40,089 nucleotides of DNA from Chloroflexota bacterium (GTDB lineage: Bacteria > Chloroflexota > UBA6077 > SHYK01): positions 1 through 40,089 of the forward strand of contig JAERMM010000002.1 of assembly GCA_016844585.1 (NCBI GenBank), given 5' to 3'. This document shows, piece by piece, positions 24,064-35,887 of this stretch; positions within the stretch are counted from its first letter, which is position 1, and each line of letters begins with the position of its first letter. The notes under the pieces were generated by a model. That model did no database searches. It was not told where the DNA came from and saw only the letters and a list, made by a program, of their open reading frames with translations. Position numbers and translations under genes: made by a program.

Positions 24064-25341
24064 TCATGGCAGGAACCGCAGCGGGTCGGTAGGGACTCCA
24101 GCAAGACGCACCTCGAAGTGGAGGTGCGGACCCGTGCTTACGCCCGTGCTCCCTGCGTAGCCCAGACGCTGGCCCTGGATCACCCGTTCGCCTGGCTTCA
24201 CCGTGAAGGCGCTCATGTGCGCGTACAGGGTCCCGATCCCGCCGCCGTGATCTATCTCAACCCGCCAACCGTAGCCGTAGTCAGACTCGAGGGCCATGGT
24301 GACGATGCCCGGGGCGGCGGCGGCCACAGGGTCGCCCGTGTTAGCCATGATGTCAATGCCCGAATGGCCCCCATCGCCGAACTCTGTTGAGATTCCACCG
24401 CGCGCGGGCCATCCGAGGATGGCGGGCCCGGGTCCTCCGGTCTGGGGCGGCCGCGTGGCGATGCTGAACACAGGCGCCGTTGTCGTGGGAGCCACCGTGC
24501 TGGTTCCAGGAAGGGCCGTCCGTCCTGGCGTGGCTGTTGCGATCGCAGTCGCTGTCATGGGGCGAGCTGTAGCCGTGGGCAGCGGCGGCGCCAGCGTGGG
24601 TGCTGGCGTCGAGGTTGGGATCGGGGCTACTGCTCCGGGGATGAGGAGGCGCTGGCCGCTAAAGATTGCGCTCGGGTCTGAAAGGTCATTCGCATCAGCG
24701 ATGGCGGAAATCTGAACCCCGTAGAGAGCGGCGATCTCTCCGAGCGATTCTCCGGGTCGTACGGTGTGGACGGCGCCGAACACTCGCGGGATCAGTAGGG
24801 CCTGCCCGACCTGGATCGTTCCGTCCTGCGATAGGCGGTTCGTCGAGATGATGGCTGCGCTCGGAACACCGTAGAGCGCCGCGATCGAGGAGATGGTGTC
24901 GCCAGGAACGACGACGTGGTCGAGTACCGCGGCCGGGCGAGTCGCTGTAGGCTGTGCGGTCGGGACGGATGTGGTGGTAGGCTCAGGAGTGGGTGTTGGT
25001 GATTCTGTGGGGGACGGCTCGATTGTCGCTGTAACCTCCGCCGTCGCGGTCGGAGTTGCCTCTGGGGTGGGGGTTGCTGTGGTTGTTGCCGTGATGGTCT
25101 CATCGCCCAGTGAGATATCTTCGGGGGTTGGCCTGGGGATCGGTGTTGTGCTGGGCACGGACGTGCGCGTCGCGACGGCCAGGAGCGCGTTTGAAGCAGA
25201 CGCGGGGGTCAGGCGAGGCGTGGCCCCAAGCTGGTCGATTGCGACGTAGACGCCGAGGCCGCCGATAGCAATAATGGCGATGATCGCTACGAACAGCCCG
25301 GGACCGCCCACGGTCGGGGGGCGAGGCCTCAGATGGCGCAT
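24064..25341 (-). CDS. LysM and M23 peptidase domain protein
   Basis: Two LysM repeats (VVPGDTISSIAALYGV, VRPGESLGEIAALYGV), M23 signature GHSGIDIMANTGDPVAAAAPGIV...STGPHLHFEVRLAG; N-terminal TM; Pro/Thr linker. Confidence 0.9.
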   Translation of the reverse strand: MRHLRPRPPTVGGPGLFVAIIAIIAIGGLGVYVAIDQLGATPRLTPASASNALLAVATRTSVPSTTPIPRPTPEDISLGDETITATTTATPTPEATPTATAEVTATIEPSPTESPTPTPEPTTTSVPTAQPTATRPAAVLDHVVVPGDTISSIAALYGVPSAAIISTNRLSQDGTIQVGQALLIPRVFGAVHTVRPGESLGEIAALYGVQISAIADANDLSDPSAIFSGQRLLIPGAVAPIPTSTPAPTLAPPLPTATARPMTATAIATATPGRTALPGTSTVAPTTTAPVFSIATRPPQTGGPGPAILGWPARGGISTEFGDGGHSGIDIMANTGDPVAAAAPGIVTMALESDYGYGWRVEIDHGGGIGTLYAHMSAFTVKPGERVIQGQRLGYAGSTGVSTGPHLHFEVRLAGVPTDPLRFLP

Positions 25342-25483: not shown

Positions 25484-28042
25484 TCAAGTGATTGTGAACG
25501 CGGACCCCAGGTGGGTCTTTGTTACCTCGATGCGGACCGGGAACGCGTCCTTCATGTCGTCAAGGTGCGTAATGACCAAAATGCGCTTGAAGTCGTCCTG
25601 AATGGCTTTGATAGCCTCGACTAAGCGATCGCAACCATCGCGATCCTGACTACCGAACCCCTCGTCGATGGCCAACATCTGCAAAGGAGCCCCCGCCCGG
25701 CGGGCCAGCAGCTGCGAGAGAGCGATGCGAATGGCAAAGCTGATCCGAAACTTTTCCCCACCCGAAAACAGCTCGTACGGTCGGGAGCCCAATTCGTCCG
25801 ACACGACCACGTCCAGTGTGCTGATCGGGCCGCCGGTGCGGCTGGCTCGTTGGGTGTTGAGCTGCAGGCGCATCTTCCCGTCGGTCAAGCGGCCGAGCAG
25901 ATCGTTCGCGCTGTCCTCGATCTCCGGCAGCGCGTGTTCTACGATCATTTCCTGGATGCCATTGCGGCCGAACGCTTCGGCCAGCTGGTCGTAGGCGGAT
26001 GTATCTTGCCGCGCCGCCAGGCGCTGAGCATCGAATTCCCGGCGCTCCACCTCTTGTTGGTCGAGCCACGTGACCATCTGCCGAGCCCTGCCGAGTCGTT
26101 CCTTCGCGGCGAGTTGTGTCTTTGCCGCGGACTGCAGCTCCTGGCCCTTGATGTCCAGCGCTGCTCGTGCCCGTGGCAGATCCCCGGCCACCCGCGCGAA
26201 TTCTGCGCGCTCCTTGGCCAGGCTTGCAGACTCTGTCTGGGCCGCGGCGAGACTGGCCTCAATCCGCACACGGTCCACGGCGGCGTTCTCTCGGGCGGTT
26301 CGCGCCTGGTTGAGCCGCTGCATCGCTTCAGGCGCCTCGCGAAGTCTGAATCTGGTGTCGCGAACCGCCTTGTGATGCTCCGGATCGTAGCCGACGTTCC
26401 TGACGCGCTCCTCGAGGGCTGGCAACCGTCCGCGGACGTCGGATGCGAAGTCTTCATCGGCGAGGACTCGGCTCAGTTCCGTCTCCTCCTGTCGGATGTC
26501 GGCCAGGTGGCCGCGGTCCTGATCGACACGCGCCCGGCGGCTCGTAAGCTCGCCAAGCGCCTGCTCAACACCCGAACGCGCGACCAATTCGGCCTGCCTG
26601 TTGGCGATGGTGGCCTGCGCCGCCTTCACGCGAGTGTCCTCGGAAGCGTAGCTGCTGCGCGCGGCCCTGAGCTGGTCCTCGAATTGCTCGCGCTCGGCAG
26701 CCAGTCGAGCGCGAGCCGCGCTAAGCCCTTCTTCGCCAAGGGGCTGGCCGCAGAGCGGACAATCCTGGTTTTCGCCTAGCATTTCGATGCGCTTCGTCAC
26801 GTCCTCGACGTTAGAGTGCAGTCGCTTTCCGTCTTCGAGGAGGACCTCCCGTCGCTTATTGGCCTCCTCCAATTCACTCCGTACTGCGTTCAGATCGTTA
26901 TTGACCTCATCGAGGCGCGCGAGCTCCATTCCGCGCCGTTCTATCTCTGTGTCGAGAGTAGCCGGGTCGTCCAGCCGCCCCTCGATCTCGCGTGCTTGTC
27001 GGGTGACGCTCTCGAGTCGGGCCTCGATCGACATCCGCTCGCGGTGGATGGCAGTTTGCGCCTCGGCCAGACTGTCCCGAGCGGCACTCCAGGCGTCGAA
27101 GCGCGATGAAAGTTCGCGGTCCTCTTCGTCGGAGCGCTGGTACTCCTCGTGTTCTTGCTCGATCGCTGGCGCACGGAGAGCGACGGCGTCCGCGTCAAGA
27201 ATGCGGCGGTCCAGGTCCTCCATCTGGCCACGCAGGCGCGAAACCTGATCTTCCGCGTCCCGCGACTGGCGCTCCTTTGTGACCGCCTGACGCTCGGCCT
27301 CTGCGAGCGCCTCCACCTCTGTCAACAGCCCGCGACGCTCGTCCTCGAGTCGGTCTTTCAACGCTGTGGCTTCTGTCGCGTTCGACTCTGTCGATTTGAG
27401 CTCCTCGAGGTACACATCGCGTTTCGCCAACTGTGCGTCGATGCCCTCGATAAGTCCGGAAAGGCGTATGCCCTCGGTTCGCGCAACGCGGCTTAGATCG
27501 CGCGCGCGCTGTGATAGGTCGTCGTAGTGCTGCAGATCGAGGATCTCGCCGAGCACCTGCTTGCGGTCCCGGGGTGGGAGGGTCATAAACGCGTCCGCCG
27601 CGCCCTGTGCGATAAAGGATGCGTGGGTGAAGGTCTTATGAGTCATTCGGAGTAGGTTGTTGATGCTGTTCTGGGTTTGAGCGATGGATCCCCCGGTCAG
27701 CGTGCGCCAATCGCCACCGTCCAGGCTCTCGAGGGACAGCTCCCCTCGGCCTAGCTTGCCCTGCTTCGTGCGTCGCCGAGTGACCCGATACCGAACGCTG
27801 TCAAGCTCAAACTCCAGGGACACCAACATCTCATGTGCGCCTTGACGGATGAGGTCGTCACCAGCCCTGTCTCCGCCGCGCGCTTCACCCCATAACGCCC
27901 AGATCATTGCGTCGAGCAGAGCGCTCTTGCCATTGCCATTCGGCCCGGAAAGACACGCCACGTGAATCCCCTCGAGTGACAGGGGCTCGTGGTCTTCACC
28001 GTAGGAGAGAAAGTTCCGCAGCTCGAGCCGAAGGGGAATCAT
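25484..28042 (-). CDS. sbcC: SbcC/Rad50-like exonuclease subunit
   Basis: MIPLRLELRNFLSYG, GPNGNGKSALLDAMIWALWG, zinc hook CPLCGQPLG, FSGGEKFRISFAIRIALSQLL. ATG 28042; upstream ORF extension comes from heptamer repeats. Confidence 0.92.
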   Translation of the reverse strand: MIPLRLELRNFLSYGEDHEPLSLEGIHVACLSGPNGNGKSALLDAMIWALWGEARGGDRAGDDLIRQGAHEMLVSLEFELDSVRYRVTRRRTKQGKLGRGELSLESLDGGDWRTLTGGSIAQTQNSINNLLRMTHKTFTHASFIAQGAADAFMTLPPRDRKQVLGEILDLQHYDDLSQRARDLSRVARTEGIRLSGLIEGIDAQLAKRDVYLEELKSTESNATEATALKDRLEDERRGLLTEVEALAEAERQAVTKERQSRDAEDQVSRLRGQMEDLDRRILDADAVALRAPAIEQEHEEYQRSDEEDRELSSRFDAWSAARDSLAEAQTAIHRERMSIEARLESVTRQAREIEGRLDDPATLDTEIERRGMELARLDEVNNDLNAVRSELEEANKRREVLLEDGKRLHSNVEDVTKRIEMLGENQDCPLCGQPLGEEGLSAARARLAAEREQFEDQLRAARSSYASEDTRVKAAQATIANRQAELVARSGVEQALGELTSRRARVDQDRGHLADIRQEETELSRVLADEDFASDVRGRLPALEERVRNVGYDPEHHKAVRDTRFRLREAPEAMQRLNQARTARENAAVDRVRIEASLAAAQTESASLAKERAEFARVAGDLPRARAALDIKGQELQSAAKTQLAAKERLGRARQMVTWLDQQEVERREFDAQRLAARQDTSAYDQLAEAFGRNGIQEMIVEHALPEIEDSANDLLGRLTDGKMRLQLNTQRASRTGGPISTLDVVVSDELGSRPYELFSGGEKFRISFAIRIALSQLLARRAGAPLQMLAIDEGFGSQDRDGCDRLVEAIKAIQDDFKRILVITHLDDMKDAFPVRIEVTKTHLGSAFTIT

Positions 28043-28050
28043 TGTACGAG

Positions 28051-28078
28051 TGCTGAGTGCTGAGTGCTGAGTGCTGAG
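28051..28078 (+). repeat. heptanucleotide tandem array (TGCTGAG)x4
   Basis: Four exact units between sbcD and sbcC, 9 nt from the sbcC start codon. Confidence 0.95.
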
Positions 28079-28143
28079 ACGACCGAGGGGCGCACGGCGC
28101 ACAGCAGTGTTGGCGGCTGATTGCGTCGAATCGCAATGTGCAT

Positions 28144-28173
28144 CTGAGGACTCAGCACTCAGGACTCAGCACT
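28144..28173 (+). repeat. inverted/degenerate arm of the same heptamer family
   Basis: CTGAGGACTCAGCACTCAGGACTCAGCACT, largely complementary to 28051..28078; overlaps the sbcD stop codon. Confidence 0.85.
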
Positions 28174-29394
28174 GGCGAGGCGGGTGGCATATTCGCGAAG
28201 ACGAACGCGATCTGTCTCGGGTATCTGTTTCTCGGCGAAGTAGTCGTCCAGAAGCTCGAGTGACGTCCGTCCTTCCACAGTCATGCCAGCAATGCGGTCT
28301 CGTATCGGACGATCTACCTCCCGGTTTATGCCCGCGATCCAGAACGCATCAGAGAGGGCGGCGCGCACCCGCGACTCATCGAAAAGCGCCTGGTTCTGCA
28401 GGCTCATCTTGACGCGGACCCGTACGACCGCGTCCGCAACCTCGTTGCGTTGCCGTTCGACCTGACGAAGGGTTTCCTCTGTCGGATCGCCAGAACGGTC
28501 GGGGACGTCTATGGTCACAAACTTGCGCGCTGACAGCGTCCTAGGCTCCCACTCGGCGTGCCCGCGCGACACTTCCGCGACGATGAAGACTTTTTCCTCT
28601 TTCTCTTCTCCGAAGTTGACGCGCTCTATGCTGCCCGGGTACACGGCTGGCGGCTTGACAAGCAGTTTTTGGTGGCTGTGGATGTGGCCGAGCGCGACGT
28701 AGTCAAACGTGTCCAACGCGATGCTCGTGATGGGGACCAACGGGTCTGTGCCAACCGTGAGCAGCCGTTCTGCGCCGTCCCTGGCCTCCGCTGCGTGGAC
28801 GTGAGCCACCAGGAGCGAGGGCGCATCCTGCATGGTGGGCTTTTTACGATGCTCGATGACCTCCTCAGCCAGGTCGAGCGCGGACCCGACGATGACTCTG
28901 ACCAGCTCCTCGTCGATGCGCACAGAGGACATCGTGTTTGCGCCGCTCATCGACAGCACCGCGCTTCGGGTCACCCACGGGATCGCGGAGACCATGATCG
29001 GCCCCGACGCCGTGTCAATCGTCCAGCACTTCACGTCGCGAGCCACCGTGACCCCCGGAACCTCCAGGTCGCGGAAGATATCGATGGACGTGGCGCGGCT
29101 GACTGCGTTGGGCAGGTCGTGGTTGCCCGCCAGCAGAAACACGGGGATGCGCGCCTGTACCAGGCGCAGGACCTGTCTCGCGAATAGCCGCTGATGCGTG
29201 GGCGAGGGCTCACGGTTCTTGTAGATGTCGCCAGCCATGACGACGAGGTCGGCGTGTTCTTCGATCGCCGTGTCGACGATGCATTCGAGTGCTTTGAGAA
29301 AGTCCTCCAGTCGCCGCGGTAAGCCCGTGTGCGGATTGACTGGCCCATGGGTCTCCATGCCGATGTGTAAATCGGCCGTGTGGACAATCTTCAT
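28159..29394 (-). CDS. sbcD: SbcD/Mre11-like DNA exonuclease subunit
   Basis: MKIVHTADLHIGM, VMAGDIYKNREPS, FLLAGNHDLPN, LLVAHVHA, DYVALGHIHSHQ. Confidence 0.92.
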   Translation of the reverse strand: MKIVHTADLHIGMETHGPVNPHTGLPRRLEDFLKALECIVDTAIEEHADLVVMAGDIYKNREPSPTHQRLFARQVLRLVQARIPVFLLAGNHDLPNAVSRATSIDIFRDLEVPGVTVARDVKCWTIDTASGPIMVSAIPWVTRSAVLSMSGANTMSSVRIDEELVRVIVGSALDLAEEVIEHRKKPTMQDAPSLLVAHVHAAEARDGAERLLTVGTDPLVPITSIALDTFDYVALGHIHSHQKLLVKPPAVYPGSIERVNFGEEKEEKVFIVAEVSRGHAEWEPRTLSARKFVTIDVPDRSGDPTEETLRQVERQRNEVADAVVRVRVKMSLQNQALFDESRVRAALSDAFWIAGINREVDRPIRDRIAGMTVEGRTSLELLDDYFAEKQIPETDRVRLREYATRLASAES

Positions 29395-29410
29395 AGAGGC
29401 GCCTGTAACC

Positions 29411-31099
29411 TCAATCGTCAGGAAGCGATGCGAAGTCCCGGGCGCGTTTGCCGTCCGGGAAGTCCGGTCCGCGACTGCCGGCCATCACGTCGGCGTAGAA
29501 CGCCGCATCGATCGTTCTGACCTTGATAACCACGGGCATTGGGACGGCGTGCCCGAGCAGCATGGCCTGCTGCTGGGAGTCCAGCGACGCCAGCACCGAA
29601 CGCAGGTGGCTTGCGCCGCTTATGCCCGCCAGGATTGCCGCGATGTCATTCTCATCGTTAAGTTGGCAGGTCAGGCGTGTCCCGATCTGTGAGAGCACCT
29701 CGGGATCGATCCCGGACGGTCGCTGATCCACGATCAGGAGCGTCACGTTGAACTTCCGCAGCTCTCGCGCGATGGTGCCGAAGCTGGTGTGGCGCGCCGC
29801 CGAGGGGCTGAGGAACTTATGGGCCTCCTCGACGGTGATCACCAGGAGCGGCGGCCTATCCGCCTCGTCGGCGTGGGCCGCTTGCATACGCGCGGTCCAG
29901 CGAGCGTGGATCCGCCGGGTTAAGACGTTCGCAACGAGCATGTATGGCAGAAGCTGGCTTTCGTGCTCGAAGGCGAGCACGACGTTACTTCCGCGCTCCA
30001 GGCTGTTGACGATCAGCTCGAGCGACGATGACGCGCGAGACACGTGCTCGTCCGTGACGAACTCGAGCTGCCGAAGCTGGTTCAGCTTGCGATTGAGGGC
30101 CCCAACAGCGCCGGGGTGGGCGTTGACCTCGTCGCAGAACGCTTTGATGTCGGATGGCGTCATCTCCAACAGGTCCCTGAGCCACGTATCGCCGAAGCGG
30201 CTCTGTAGCAGGTAGATGGTTTCGATGGCTGTCTCGTTCAGGTTGAGCAGCTCTGAGAGCAATGCGATGTCGTCGATGTCGATTTCGTTGAGGCCGATGC
30301 GGATGTCCCCGTCGGTCCGGTGGCCGGTCGGACGCGGACGAGTGGAGCGAAGCGTATACACGGCGACGCGGGCATTTCCGAACAGGTCTTTCAAACTGCG
30401 GAGCATGAGCCCGCTGCCGGCGTCGCGCGTCGGCCAGGCGTATTCGCTGTGCATGTCGAAGATCAGGTTCACCGCTGCGCCACTGCGAATCAGGCCGGAG
30501 AGCAGCACGCGGGTCAGCATGCTCTTGCCGCTGCCGGACTTTCCGAACACCCCATTAGATCTCTCGGCAACGCGCTCCAGATCGAGCCGCACCGGGATGT
30601 CCATGTCGAGAGGGGTGCCGATCTCCCACGATCCTTCTCCCTCAGGAGCGAAAACGCGATCGAAGTCATCCTTGGTGGCGGCATCCATGGGAGCAAAGTG
30701 CACCGGAATGGTTCGCACCGGTAGCGGCCTGCCCATCTCGTCAGGAGCGACTTGGTCGGCTGGCTGTTTGTTCAGCATCAACATGGGCTGCACCACGACG
30801 GAGCCGAAGGTCGCCGTTCCGAGAAGCACGTCTTGCAGGAACGAATCGGCTGGGTCCGGTGGGTCTGCCAGGACCTGGTCGCTGCTGGCGCCCAGAGCCA
30901 CGTCCGTAATGAGGCAGAAGAAGTCGAAGTGCTCGCCTCGGATCTTGACAAAGCGGCCCACGCGCACGTCTTCGACGGAACAACTCCCATCGAGTCGAGC
31001 CGTCAGGCCCTTCGTAAGCGAGCCTTCGACCACGAGGCCAAGACGAGTGCTGAGTGCTGAGTGCTGAGTGCTGAGGGGGCCATCGTGCACGCTTATCAC
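29411..31099 (-). CDS. herA: HerA-like DNA translocase/helicase ATPase
   Basis: GVFGKSGSGKSMLTRVLLSGL (Walker A), LLVITVEEAHKFL (Walker B), VTLLIVDQRPSGIDPEVLSQIGTRLTCQL; N-terminal HAS-like region. GTG 31099 overlaps the permease stop; a later start is possible. Confidence 0.9.
   Translation of the reverse strand: MISVHDGPLSTQHSALSTRLGLVVEGSLTKGLTARLDGSCSVEDVRVGRFVKIRGEHFDFFCLITDVALGASSDQVLADPPDPADSFLQDVLLGTATFGSVVVQPMLMLNKQPADQVAPDEMGRPLPVRTIPVHFAPMDAATKDDFDRVFAPEGEGSWEIGTPLDMDIPVRLDLERVAERSNGVFGKSGSGKSMLTRVLLSGLIRSGAAVNLIFDMHSEYAWPTRDAGSGLMLRSLKDLFGNARVAVYTLRSTRPRPTGHRTDGDIRIGLNEIDIDDIALLSELLNLNETAIETIYLLQSRFGDTWLRDLLEMTPSDIKAFCDEVNAHPGAVGALNRKLNQLRQLEFVTDEHVSRASSSLELIVNSLERGSNVVLAFEHESQLLPYMLVANVLTRRIHARWTARMQAAHADEADRPPLLVITVEEAHKFLSPSAARHTSFGTIARELRKFNVTLLIVDQRPSGIDPEVLSQIGTRLTCQLNDENDIAAILAGISGASHLRSVLASLDSQQQAMLLGHAVPMPVVIKVRTIDAAFYADVMAGSRGPDFPDGKRARDFASLPDD
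31048..31075 (+). repeat. heptanucleotide tandem array (TGCTGAG)x4
   Basis: 33 nt (31043..31075) identical to 28046..28078; lies within the predicted N-terminus of herA. Confidence 0.95.
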
Positions 31100-31911
31100 C
31101 TGCCCCGGAGAAGCTGTTCGCGATCGAAGATGCGAATGGCAATGAAGATGAGCAGCGCATCGAGCCCGAAGAAGCCGGATGCAAGGATGGCGAGTGCCCA
31201 GGGCGTCAGAAAGAAGAGAAGCACCGTCTGAGGCACGATCAGGGTAATGATCGGGAGCACCACCAGCCCGTTGAGCTGATATGCGGCGCGATAGGTTGCC
31301 ACCCGCGTCGAGATCAGGGCGGCTACTCCCGCCGACATCAGCGCCATCAGCGGAACCATGATGAGTGCAGAAGCCAGCCAGTCGGGGTCGGCCAACAGGA
31401 AGCCAGGGAAATAGGGGTTATGCGATCTCCACACCGCCAGTGTGAAGATCGCGAGCCCGAGCCAGGTGCCGAGGATCGCGGGCACCACGGCCGCTACGAG
31501 CTTGCCCAGGAACAGCTCGCCGTTCTTGATCGGCGTGGCGAGCAATGGCTCGAGCGTGTCGCGCTCCTTTTCACCCACGAAGCTATCCGCGGCGATGGTC
31601 GCCGTGAGCGCAACGGTGACGATCCAGAAGAGCGGGAGCGTCATCGCCTTCAAGATCGTCCCGACGAGCGCTCCCTGCTGCTGTTCTGAAAGCTCCAGGT
31701 AGAACTGCATCCACCGCGGCGATAGCTGCTCGGCTCCGATCGTGCCAACAACGACGCTCACGGTGCTTGAGTCCGCCCCCGCGGTCCCGAGGACGGCGAG
31801 CGATGCGACCACGCCCATGAGCGCCGGCATCATGATCATTGGCCCGAGAAGGTTGAAGTCCCGAATGACTTCGGTCATCTCACGCTGTGTGACGAGCAGC
31901 GCCATCCGCAT
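31096..31911 (-). CDS. ABC-2 type transporter permease
   Basis: Multi-TM; ADSFVGEKERDTLEPLLATPIKNGELFLGKLVAAVVPAILGTW. Confidence 0.88.
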   Translation of the reverse strand: MRMALLVTQREMTEVIRDFNLLGPMIMMPALMGVVASLAVLGTAGADSSTVSVVVGTIGAEQLSPRWMQFYLELSEQQQGALVGTILKAMTLPLFWIVTVALTATIAADSFVGEKERDTLEPLLATPIKNGELFLGKLVAAVVPAILGTWLGLAIFTLAVWRSHNPYFPGFLLADPDWLASALIMVPLMALMSAGVAALISTRVATYRAAYQLNGLVVLPIITLIVPQTVLLFFLTPWALAILASGFFGLDALLIFIAIRIFDREQLLRGR

Positions 31912-32830
31912 CGTTAACCCTCTTCATCAGGTGCAGGTACGCATCTTCGAGAGCAACTGCCTCCTCCTGGACGCTGACAACGTCAGCGCCGGCGGCTACC
32001 AGGGCCCGCACAACATCAGGATTGACTTCGGCCGTCCTGTTCGTCATGTACGTGATGCAACCATTTTGTGTAGCCAGGTCCTCAACCCCGGGAACAGCCC
32101 GTACCGACTCGACGTACTCGTCACGCATCGACGCGAGTGTGAGGGTGACTGCCCGCTCAATTCCGGCTTTCAGCTCGGATGGCGTCCCCTCAGCCACTGT
32201 CCGTCCATTCTGGACCACGCTCAGGCGGCTGCAGATTCGCTCCGCTTCGGCCAGGTTGTGCGTGCAGAGGAGCACCGTGCTGCGTTCCTGCTCGATCAGG
32301 CTTACCAGGTGATCGCGGACGGTCCGTGCTGCCTCCGGGTCCAGCGCCGCGGTCGGCTCGTCGAAGAACAGAACGCGTGGTTCATGGATGAGGGCCCGTG
32401 CAATCGCCACCTTTTGTTTCAGCCCCTTCGACAGGGTCCGTAAGCGTTGTCGGCGCATTTCCCAAACCCCGAGCAGCTTCATCAAGCCTTCGATGCGAGC
32501 CCGTCGGCGCTGGCCAGGGAGTCCGTAGACGCGGGCGAAGAAGTCTAGATACTCATATGCCCCAAGCCGCTCGTAGAGGCCAGGGACCTCGGTCAGAATG
32601 CCGATGTTCTCGCGCACCTTCTGCGGGTTCTGGCTGACGTCGAATCCAGCCACCCATGCGCGACCGGAATCGGGGGTCAGCAAACAAGCCAGGATGCGGG
32701 TGGTCGTCGTCTTGCCAGCGCCGTTCGGTCCCAACAGCCCGTGGATTTGTCCCTCCGGAACCGTAAAGCCGATGTCGGCGACCGCGACCTTGGCGCCGAA
32801 GTTCTTGGCTAGTGACTCGGCAACGATCAT
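31880..32830 (-). CDS. ABC transporter ATP-binding protein
   Basis: LLGPNGAGKTTTTRILACLL, LSKGLKQKVAIARALIHEPRVLFFDEPTAALDP. Confidence 0.92.
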   Translation of the reverse strand: MIVAESLAKNFGAKVAVADIGFTVPEGQIHGLLGPNGAGKTTTTRILACLLTPDSGRAWVAGFDVSQNPQKVRENIGILTEVPGLYERLGAYEYLDFFARVYGLPGQRRRARIEGLMKLLGVWEMRRQRLRTLSKGLKQKVAIARALIHEPRVLFFDEPTAALDPEAARTVRDHLVSLIEQERSTVLLCTHNLAEAERICSRLSVVQNGRTVAEGTPSELKAGIERAVTLTLASMRDEYVESVRAVPGVEDLATQNGCITYMTNRTAEVNPDVVRALVAAGADVVSVQEEAVALEDAYLHLMKRVNDADGAARHTA

Positions 32831-33504
32831 CGCGTCTCACCCACCAGGCGCGCTCTGGGTCGTTCGTCGACAGCGGTTGGCCGAATCCTCTGCAGAACGG
32901 TGATCAAGCGTTGGTGATCGTCTCGTAGGAGCGCCGCGACCTCCCGTCCGGCGCGAACGCGGAAGGCGTAAGCGGTTTCATCCGCGACGGTGCGCTCGCG
33001 CGCTGTTGCGGCGCATCGGATGTGGGCTGCGAGGACCTCCTCGGTGGGTAAGCTCCGTTCCCCGAGGAGCATGCGGAAGTAGTCGAGCGTACGGGTGAAG
33101 CCGCGAACTTCGTCTGAGCTGCCCATGCCTATCGAATAGTGAATTGGGGGAGGCGTTGGCGGCAGGTGCTGGTGGATCCCAGCATTGTCGTCAAAGCCGA
33201 CGACCAAGCAGTCGAAGCAGGTCCGAAGCACGAGCGCGAGATCCGGATGGTTGTGGTAGACCTCCGCGTCCTCCATGCCGTCGGCGGCTCGCGGAATTGG
33301 CCTAGCTCCCACGTCCAGGCCGTCCGTGAAGGCGCCGACGACGATGCCGTAAATCGTCAGGTCCGTCTCGGCCCTGACTCGAACGAGCGCTCCTAGCGGC
33401 GGCGACTCGTGGAGACGGAGGCACTGTCCCTGAAAGGTCGAGATGGCCGTACCGATTACCTCGCCAACTCGAGACGCTTGATCGTTCGGAGATTGCAGGC
33501 TCAT
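32827..33504 (-). CDS. hypothetical protein with HAS-barrel-like N-terminal domain
   Basis: GEVIGTAISTFQGQCLRLHESPPLGALVRVRAETDLTIYGIVVGAFTDGL resembles HerA N-terminal barrels. ATG 33504 chosen because the upstream extension is repeat-derived. Confidence 0.6.
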   Translation of the reverse strand: MSLQSPNDQASRVGEVIGTAISTFQGQCLRLHESPPLGALVRVRAETDLTIYGIVVGAFTDGLDVGARPIPRAADGMEDAEVYHNHPDLALVLRTCFDCLVVGFDDNAGIHQHLPPTPPPIHYSIGMGSSDEVRGFTRTLDYFRMLLGERSLPTEEVLAAHIRCAATARERTVADETAYAFRVRAGREVAALLRDDHQRLITVLQRIRPTAVDERPRARLVGETR

Positions 33505-33526
33505 TGCGCACTCTGTCGGTTCTGTT

Positions 33527-33650
33527 CCTCTCCCATCGCAATGGGAGAGGCTAGGCGAGGGCACCTTGTGGGCGCCGCAGGGTCACCTGGACCCGGCAGA
33601 GGGGTGGCCCTCACCCCCGCCTCTCCCGCCGCGGCAGGAGAGGGGCAGAC
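33527..33650 (+). repeat. composite two-palindrome repeat, copy A
   Basis: CCTCTCCCATCGCAATGGGAGAGG at one end, GGTGGCCCTCACCCCCGCCTCTCCCGCCGCGGCAGGAGAGGGGCAGAC at the other. Confidence 0.85.
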
Positions 33651-33690
33651 AAGCTCGCCCCAACCCACGGTGGTCCTGCGCCAAGCTCTA

Positions 33691-34848
33691 CTAGACTGCA
33701 CGGAGGTTCTTGCTCGCCTGCTTTTCAGAGAGCCCGGCTGACATGCCAGCCCGCTGAAGCGCCTCCGCCACCAGCTGCTGAAATGCTCGGCGATCACCGC
33801 CGCTGATCACCGCCTGCTCGTGGGCACGAGCCAGCGCCACCGGATACCCCTGGCCCCGAGTCGCTTGATCGACCACGACGGAGTGAACGCGCTCGATCAG
33901 CTCGTTGTCCTCGGCCACCCAGCGAGGAACCTCTACTCGGGCGACCTCGCGTCCGACGTGGACGTAGAAGAAATGCGAACGGTTATGCTCTCCGTGGCGG
34001 TCGGCGTCTCGACCGGCTGCCTGCAGAAGGCCCGATCGGTCCCCCGGTTTCAGCTGATCGTACAGGCTCAAATCGATGAGCCCATCGAAAGCGCAGCCGA
34101 CCTCGGAGCATTCCACCTCACAGCCGGATTGACCGTATTGGCAACGGGCTGCCATCCGCAACGTGTCGATCAGGAGGTGGCCGTGCGGGTTGCTGACGTA
34201 GGCCGCCAGTGGCAAACCGCGCCCCCGTATCGCGTCCAATGCCTGGCCGAGCTGGTCGGACACCTCGTCCGCGCCTGCACCGGCCCAGTCTTGACGCCAG
34301 ATGGTCAGCAGACCGTCAGCGAGCGCGACTCTGGGAGCATCGATAGTTGAAGGCTCGTCGGCCAGTTGGCCCAGAGCACGCATCTCCGCCACGCTCCGCC
34401 TTGCATCGAGCAGCCGTTCCTGCAACAACACGCGGCCGCCGGCCTGTTCGACGTACAGCTCCTCGGGACGAAAGTAGAGGCGGGGCTCGTTGCTGAGGGC
34501 CGCGAACGGCGAGTCGCCATATCGAAGCCTGACAAGCCCGACGTTTATCAACGCGCAGATCGTGAGTCCGTGGCGGTCGGGCTCGATCGACGATCCATCG
34601 CTGGCGAGCACTTCGTAGGACGGCAGCGCCGGCGGTGCAGCGTGGACGGTGTCCAATGGCTCGGTGGGCGCCGCGCAGGTACGACCGCTTGCACGAGCCA
34701 TGTCCGCCAGCTTCTGCCAGGACGACGCGGACGCCTGAAACCAGGCCCGTGCAAGATCGAGTCGTGCCCTTCGTCCGTCGCGGGAGTCGCGCAGGTGCTC
34801 CCCCATGCGCTCGAGCTGGTTGCCGACACGAAGAAGGTCGAGCGTCAC
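33691..34848 (-). CDS. nurA: NurA domain nuclease
   Basis: VLASDGSSIEPDRHG, ICALINVGLVRLRYG, FFYVHVGREVARVEVPRWVAED; linked to herA. Start suggested at GTG 34848; ORF extension to 35004 is repeat-derived. Confidence 0.8.
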   Translation of the reverse strand: MTLDLLRVGNQLERMGEHLRDSRDGRRARLDLARAWFQASASSWQKLADMARASGRTCAAPTEPLDTVHAAPPALPSYEVLASDGSSIEPDRHGLTICALINVGLVRLRYGDSPFAALSNEPRLYFRPEELYVEQAGGRVLLQERLLDARRSVAEMRALGQLADEPSTIDAPRVALADGLLTIWRQDWAGAGADEVSDQLGQALDAIRGRGLPLAAYVSNPHGHLLIDTLRMAARCQYGQSGCEVECSEVGCAFDGLIDLSLYDQLKPGDRSGLLQAAGRDADRHGEHNRSHFFYVHVGREVARVEVPRWVAEDNELIERVHSVVVDQATRGQGYPVALARAHEQAVISGGDRRAFQQLVAEALQRAGMSAGLSEKQASKNLRAV

Positions 34849-34911
34849 GGGGCGGTCCGCCCAGCCACTAGTAGAGCTCGGCGAAAGAGCGCCGTCGATT
34901 GGTATGAGTCC

Positions 34912-35032
34912 GTCTGCCCCTCTCCTGCGCAGCGGGAGAGGCGGGGGTGAGGGCCACCCGTTCCGAATCCAGGCGGCTACGGAGCGCCGAAAGGGTGCCC
35001 TCACCTAACCTCTCCCATCGCGATGGGAGAGG
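34912..35032 (-). repeat. composite two-palindrome repeat, copy B, inverted relative to copy A
   Basis: Contains perfect 24-nt palindrome CCTCTCCCATCGCGATGGGAGAGG (35009..35032) and GTCTGCCCCTCTCCTGCGCAGCGGGAGAGGCGGGGGTGAGGGCCACCC (from 34912). Confidence 0.85.
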
Positions 35033-35320: not shown

Positions 35321-35887
35321 ATGTCGTCCAACCCCCCCGTCGAGACCGAGCAGGAAGCATCGCTGGTCGAGCGGGCCATCAATGGTGAGGTAGCAGCGTT
35401 TACGGAGCTTTACGATTGCTATCACGACCGCATTTACCGTCACGTCTTCTATCGCGTGGCTCGGTCCGAGGACGCGGAGGACTTGACTCAGCAAGTGTTT
35501 CTGCGAGCCTGGCGTGCGCTCGGCCGCTACCGTCAAACCGGGAGCCCGTTCGTCGCCTGGCTCTTTACTATCGCGCATAACGAGATCGTCAGTTTCTATC
35601 GACGCCAACGGCCAACCTCATCGCTCGATGACGAGGTAGGCGACTGGCCATCCGATGAACGACTTGAGGGAGTAGCCGAGGTACGGCTGGAGCACGAGAG
35701 AGTGCGTCGGGCCATGACGAGGCTCAAGCCCGAGCAGCAGCAAGTCCTCTCGATGCGATTTCTGGAAAGCCTGGAGTATCGAGACATCGCGGCGGCCCTC
35801 GGGAAATCGGAAGGGAACGTCCGTGTGATGCAGCATCGGGCGATTGAGCGGCTGAGGCAGATCCTCGAGGAAGGGGCCAGAGCATGA
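35321..35887 (+). CDS. ECF-type RNA polymerase sigma factor
   Basis: AFTELYDCYHDRIYRHVFYRVARSEDAEDLTQQVFLRAWRAL; LKPEQQQVLSMRFLESLEYRDIAAALGKSEGNVRVMQHRAIERLRQIL. Confidence 0.9.
   Translation: MSSNPPVETEQEASLVERAINGEVAAFTELYDCYHDRIYRHVFYRVARSEDAEDLTQQVFLRAWRALGRYRQTGSPFVAWLFTIAHNEIVSFYRRQRPTSSLDDEVGDWPSDERLEGVAEVRLEHERVRRAMTRLKPEQQQVLSMRFLESLEYRDIAAALGKSEGNVRVMQHRAIERLRQILEEGARA

Follow-up and report, generated by a model that had tools for sequence, protein, structure and literature searches.

A DNA-end-processing gene cluster of a Chloroflexota bacterium encodes a HAS-barrel protein as candidate HerA-NurA adaptor and an ABC-2 exporter as probable passenger

The HerA translocase and the NurA nuclease are known from bacteria, and operons that join them with Mre11 and Rad50 are known from archaea. 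The herA-mre11-rad50-nurA operon of thermophilic archaea clusters four enzyme families, and homologues of all four share one cluster and one strand in the stretch analyzed here, a window of 40,089 nucleotides (nt) that is one whole contig of the Chloroflexota genome G000 (80% complete). Compared with the archaeal operon, the window adds a gene for a stand-alone HAS-barrel protein and a pair of ABC-2 exporter genes, has the order nurA-HAS-(ABC)-herA-sbcD-sbcC and encodes SbcCD of the bacterial type. In Deinococcus radiodurans, NurA was solved together with a HerA that has HAS, RecA-like and helical domains (PDB 7f6d and 7wrw; PMC9960219). The HAS barrel of HerA is the docking face for the NurA dimer in Deinococcus (PMC9960219) as well as in Sulfolobus (PMC8708640). 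Unlike the window, the solved D. radiodurans complex has two components (2:6) and no stand-alone HAS subunit. Bacterial SbcCD consists, as in the window, of the nuclease SbcD and the zinc-hook ATPase SbcC (families TIGR00619 and TIGR00618), but in the window sbcCD is linked to nurA-HAS-herA. The hold of NurA on HerA and the link of HerA-NurA to Mre11-Rad50 were described as unclear (PMC8708640, PMC12977600). No paper joining HerA, NurA and Chloroflexota was found in the literature searched, and the portions of the HAS-barrel and HerA literature that were consulted describe no stand-alone HAS subunit of HerA-NurA, although it may have been noticed earlier.

The cluster comprises seven minus-strand genes at 25484-34848 in the order nurA, HAS-like, ABC ATPase, ABC permease, herA, sbcD and sbcC, all at the positions proposed in an earlier sequence-only reading. 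Pfam and NCBIfam profiles confirmed NurA, HerA, SbcD, SbcC and a DrrA/ABC-2-type exporter pair. The first gene, nurA (33691..34848, GTG start, 385 amino acids (aa)), encodes a 5'-3' nuclease that matches PF09376 (2e-25) with 90.2 bits against a cut-off of 21 and is thus a member of the NurA family, a match on which that reading had made its proposal depend. An alignment of 11 members showed invariant D84-G85, E155, D178-G179 and G334-Y335-P336, the acidic residues among which are putative catalytic positions; a PDB sequence search with NurA aligned no NurA of known structure. HerA (herA, 29411..31099) carries a HAS barrel (PF09378, 3.3e-6) and a DUF87 motor (PF01935, 1.5e-27), both above the Pfam cut-offs, as well as the Walker A motif GKSGSGKS, which identifies it as a HerA translocase, and it matches the HerA structure PDB 4d2i (1.5e-18). 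The Mre11-like nuclease SbcD (sbcD, 28159..29394, 411 aa) scored 158 bits with TIGR00619 (2.9e-46), over the cut-off of 77.65, and matches Mre11/SbcD structures in the PDB. The Rad50-like ATPase SbcC (sbcC, 25484..28042, ATG at 28042, 852 aa) remained under the TIGR00618 cut-off of 478.5 with 261 bits (2.1e-77); its zinc hook (PF04423) and Walker B (PF13558) domains are above theirs, and it matches Rad50/SbcC structures in the PDB, so that the two proteins together are classed as SbcCD. Neither a second HerA nor a second sbcD copy was found in G000. The gene order is repeated in separate assemblies of other Chloroflexota, and misassembly of the cluster, which the sequence-only reading had considered, is therefore ruled out.

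Between nurA and the exporter genes lies the gene of the HAS-barrel protein (32827..33504, ATG at 33504, 225 aa). With PF09378 the protein itself scored 0.073, under the cut-off, while 14 of 20 members of its family matched this profile, the best with 1.9e-8. An AlphaFold 2 model based on an alignment of these 20 members had a predicted local distance difference test (pLDDT) of 88.6 and a predicted template modeling score (pTM) of 0.83; as with all structures discussed here, it is a single-chain prediction. The 50 best PDB matches listed by Foldseek were all HerA-family translocases or complexes with them, including HerA-NurA, and were aligned over 127-152 columns. In hhalign, the family profile aligned to the N-terminal domain of HerA from the same clusters over residues 4-130 (E 1.5e-6), whereas unrelated families used as control gave E values of 0.09-0.96. 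No P-loop domain was found by profile searches with the protein or its family, and the protein of only about 225 aa thus has the HAS barrel of a HerA translocase, by fold and by profile, but not the ATPase motor. Because the fold matches HerA and the profile aligns to its N-terminus, the modeled protein is a HerA N-terminal domain that lacks the motor and continues into a predicted helical region of about 70 residues. The barrels are also alike in being acidic, with a mean charge of -5.1 in the HAS protein and -4.9 in HerA's own barrel. Searching PDB sequences with the HAS family gave nothing useful, and a scan of genome contigs with the HAS protein of the window was uninformative.

The sequence-only reading had correctly seen a HerA-NurA-Mre11-Rad50-type module with a separate HAS-barrel protein in a bacterium; this protein is, however, a conserved partner and not a peculiarity of the locus. 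Relatives were detected in 151 of 400 Chloroflexota genomes, and two forms could be distinguished. The taxonomic order of the window and related groups have the core nurA-HAS-herA, often followed by sbcD-sbcC, while other Chloroflexota have sbcD-sbcC-nurA-X-herA, in which X is a second HAS form of about 200 aa. X is homologous to the HAS protein of the window (E 5.5e-9 by profile comparison), and its model (pLDDT 84.5) has the same fold; all of its top PDB matches listed are HerA-family structures. The two forms never occur in one genome. Among 61 genomes, either form was present in 44 of the 48 that have NurA and in one of the 13 that lack it (Fisher p 1.3e-8, phylogeny ignored), and in a class of 29 genomes HerA was found in 25, of which 23 have a HAS protein of either form. 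The 83 distinct HAS loci were divided into 40 with both nurA and herA as neighbors, 20 with nurA alone, 13 with herA alone and 10 with neither, many of the genomes being draft assemblies; these proportions are biased, since part of the loci was fetched through NurA, although loci seeded with HAS give the same picture. Where nurA and herA are apart, the HAS gene adjoins one or the other; HerA is present in every one of the 16 genomes of this or a similar kind that were checked. In several other families of the class sbcD lies apart from these genes, although it is linked in the taxonomic order of the window, and nurA-HAS-herA is thus the most closely linked unit.

A plasmid protein search with a second-form NurA matched four haloarchaeal records, and among plasmids NurA and the second-form HAS were found in the same four. 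The three plasmids examined (L153, L154 and L155), carried by Halobaculum marinum, Natrinema zhouii and archaeon DL31, have mre11-rad50-nurA-HAS-herA, an order identical to that of the second-form Chloroflexota cluster. Their HAS gene is annotated just as 'hypothetical protein', and its product reaches 136-158 bits against the X profile. The haloarchaeal cluster has five components including HAS, as does the window, but differs from it in order, in HAS form, in its HerA/NurA clade and in the lack of an exporter. These complete clusters are found despite two papers, one of them PMC12977600, according to which haloarchaea, or Haloferax volcanii, are without HerA-NurA. A plasmid search with the HAS protein of Herpetosiphon gave nothing useful. 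The nurA-HAS pair of one record named Candidatus Gracilibacteria (L082) closely resembles Chloroflexales pairs, and the record is probably a mis-binned contig.

The occurrence of a related five-gene cluster with identical order in haloarchaea and other Chloroflexota could be explained if the whole cluster of the window had recently been acquired from archaea. We reject this scarcely credible scenario on three grounds. In HerA and NurA trees, in which haloarchaea are the sole archaea included, haloarchaeal and second-form sequences group with 100% support apart from the form of the window, which belongs to a separate, long-diverged clade. HerA of haloarchaea shares 38-42% identity with the second form and 23-33% with the first, and SbcC and SbcD of the window score best with bacterial models. 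The term 'archaeal-style' applied in the sequence-only reading is hence apt for the gene set, but not for descent from an archaeal lineage.

Gene identities, fold, conservation, co-occurrence, linkage and exporter phylogeny are observed here; it is an inference that the products form a complex in which the HAS protein acts as adaptor, that this complex has a role in resection and that the exporter has none in it. Our favored account, which we consider moderately probable, is DNA-end processing by HerA-NurA-SbcCD with a dedicated HAS-barrel adaptor, the embedded exporter being a passenger. SbcCD (Mre11-Rad50) would open or trim the break and so prepare the ends, and a HerA hexamer would pump duplex DNA into the NurA nuclease dimer. 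The HAS protein would be a third, dedicated subunit of HerA-NurA in this lineage that docks or gates at the crown of HerA, the site at which NurA is held by the HAS barrels of HerA itself, and would either tether NurA to HerA or control its access, while the tail of the protein possibly couples to SbcCD. Its fold and the acidity of its barrel are those of the HerA domain, and its gene accompanies nurA and herA; the simplest role would be that of an adaptor or gate at the docking face.

The docking-domain fold and the equal acidic charge would also suit a cap or inhibitor that covers the face of HerA on which NurA docks, or takes the place of some of the HAS barrels in the ring, and thereby restrains the nuclease. 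We regard this as rather unlikely: that a permanent inhibitor is linked to nurA alone or to herA alone, depending on the lineage, is less expected than for a bridge, even if conceivable. Several points weigh against the adaptor account. In solved complexes, HerA and NurA function with no third subunit (PMC9960219), and the role of the HAS protein may therefore be limited to regulation. A study of Thermococcus kodakarensis doubts resection and suggests degradation of foreign DNA instead (PMC12977600). At ten HAS loci, of which four are at contig edges, both partners are missing within 2.5 kb; the 61-genome statistic takes no account of phylogeny, and some of the 83 loci were fetched via NurA.

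A module that mainly degrades foreign DNA would be an anti-phage or anti-plasmid system comparable to HerA-SIR2 (Nezha), HerA-DUF4297 or TdpAB, in which a HerA translocase feeds DNA to a partner enzyme, as is proposed for the machine of the window. HerA of the window matches PADLOC HerA models (3.9e-28), HerA-NurA of T. kodakarensis, for which an antiviral function was proposed, degrades both strands (PMC12977600), and the haloarchaeal copies sit on plasmids. In the window, however, the partner is NurA, neither a SIR2 nor a DUF4297 protein is encoded beside HerA, and NurA and the HAS protein matched no PADLOC model. The module is furthermore conserved across the phylum, mostly single-copy and inherited vertically within the taxonomic order, and no relative was found in the phages and viral contigs searched; a search of viral structures was likewise uninformative. 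Defence as the main function thus appears unlikely, and end processing with a HAS adaptor is preferred.

The exporter pair consists of a DrrA-like ATPase (31880..32830, minus strand; PF00005 3.5e-30) and a permease (31096..31911, minus strand; PF01061 1.5e-8, PF12679 3.1e-8). It shares ATPase and permease domains with DrrA/DrrB-type ABC-2 exporters but is embedded in a DNA-end-processing operon, and the ATPase stays under the cut-off of its best NCBIfam model, TIGR01188 drrA (4.4e-82; 275.7 bits, cut-off 312.45), and is not assigned to the daunorubicin-resistance family. The sequence-only reading had left open whether the exporter is an unrelated insertion or a functional part, for instance a resistance or defence accessory. 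As a functional part it might export a DNA-damaging compound or anchor the machine to the membrane. In favor of such a part speak the position of the pair at one site, between HAS and herA, in three families and the 56-66% identity of the three other in-cluster permeases to that of the window, the next relative having 44%. In several genomes the exporter genes also overlap their neighbors by 4 nt, as the ATPase gene does with the HAS stop in the window, which fits co-translation and counts against a mere passenger; these overlaps suggest that the exporter shares a transcript, but no more. Yet the pair is inside the cluster in only four of the 11 genomes of the taxonomic order with a window-type core (G000, G002, G009 and G013) and absent from the clusters of the other seven and from all other Chloroflexota clusters mapped. 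G005, from the family of G013, encodes a fused ATPase-permease of 614 aa on another contig (L150:6174-8015) beside unrelated genes, and this fused exporter is sister to the in-cluster copy of G013 (97% support). Judged by eye, neighboring genes resemble those of a cytochrome P450 and a TIR-domain protein. In their tree the permeases group by family as the cores do in theirs, which indicates vertical inheritance within the taxonomic order. The simplest history would be a single insertion close to the base of the taxonomic order followed by about three losses or departures, and because of this history the exporter is probably a co-transcribed passenger of a machine that has no need of it. A functional part is clearly improbable, and of the two options offered earlier the insertion is retained, the exporter being better explained as a separable passenger.

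Three predicted starts (HAS, SbcC and HerA) need trimming, since the longer open reading frames read through dispersed repeats. For the HAS gene ATG 33504 is likelier, as the frame listed to 33564 reads into a repeat; for sbcC ATG 28042 is likelier, and herA starts at GTG 31099, which gives a 4-nt overlap with the permease stop, or at a GTG near 31033. The repeat search detected a GC-rich dispersed intergenic repeat at 33602..33694 with an inverted copy upstream of nurA at 34868..34959. These two copies bracket nurA, and one stretch is 97% complementary over 32 nt. A 7-nt TCAGCAC tandem repeat lies at the permease/herA junction (31043..31075), at 28046-28078 and, inverted, at 28144-28173. Such arrays at gene junctions of the operon amount to nine matches against 0.09 expected, and they extend the apparent N-termini of HerA and SbcC.

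Downstream of sbcC, a LysM-M23 peptidase gene is located on the minus strand at 24064-25341, and a relative of it also follows sbcC in G002, G007 and G012. A divergent gene for an extracytoplasmic function (ECF) sigma factor (35321-35887; PF04542, PF08281) lies upstream of the operon. Scans for Rfam families and tRNA gave nothing informative. The herA gene of G015 (L043:4190-5870) is broken into two overlapping open reading frames in different frames, by a frameshift or an assembly error. As a simple rule, replacement of AddAB by the module finds no support, as G002 has the full cluster together with two adjacent large PDDEXK_1 proteins that resemble AddAB; AddAB-like proteins were not found in G000, a genome 80% complete.

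Taken together, the analysis names an unannotated family that more than one third of the Chloroflexota genomes sampled possess, and it corrects a view conveyed by the literature, namely that bacterial HerA-NurA is mainly found in Deinococcus-Thermus and that haloarchaea are without the pair. Somewhat short of an even chance, we would extend the proposal to a three-subunit HerA-NurA in Chloroflexota and haloarchaea, with the motorless HAS protein as an obligatory adaptor that connects the nuclease, the translocase and Mre11-Rad50; similar 'hypothetical' partners may then occur in other HerA systems. As members of the HAS family are found in cultured Herpetosiphon, Natrinema and Halobaculum, these ideas are easily testable. 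A conserved copy of the docking domain that lacks the motor, with its gene between nurA and herA in bacteria as well as archaea, is a candidate for the link between HerA-NurA and Mre11-Rad50.

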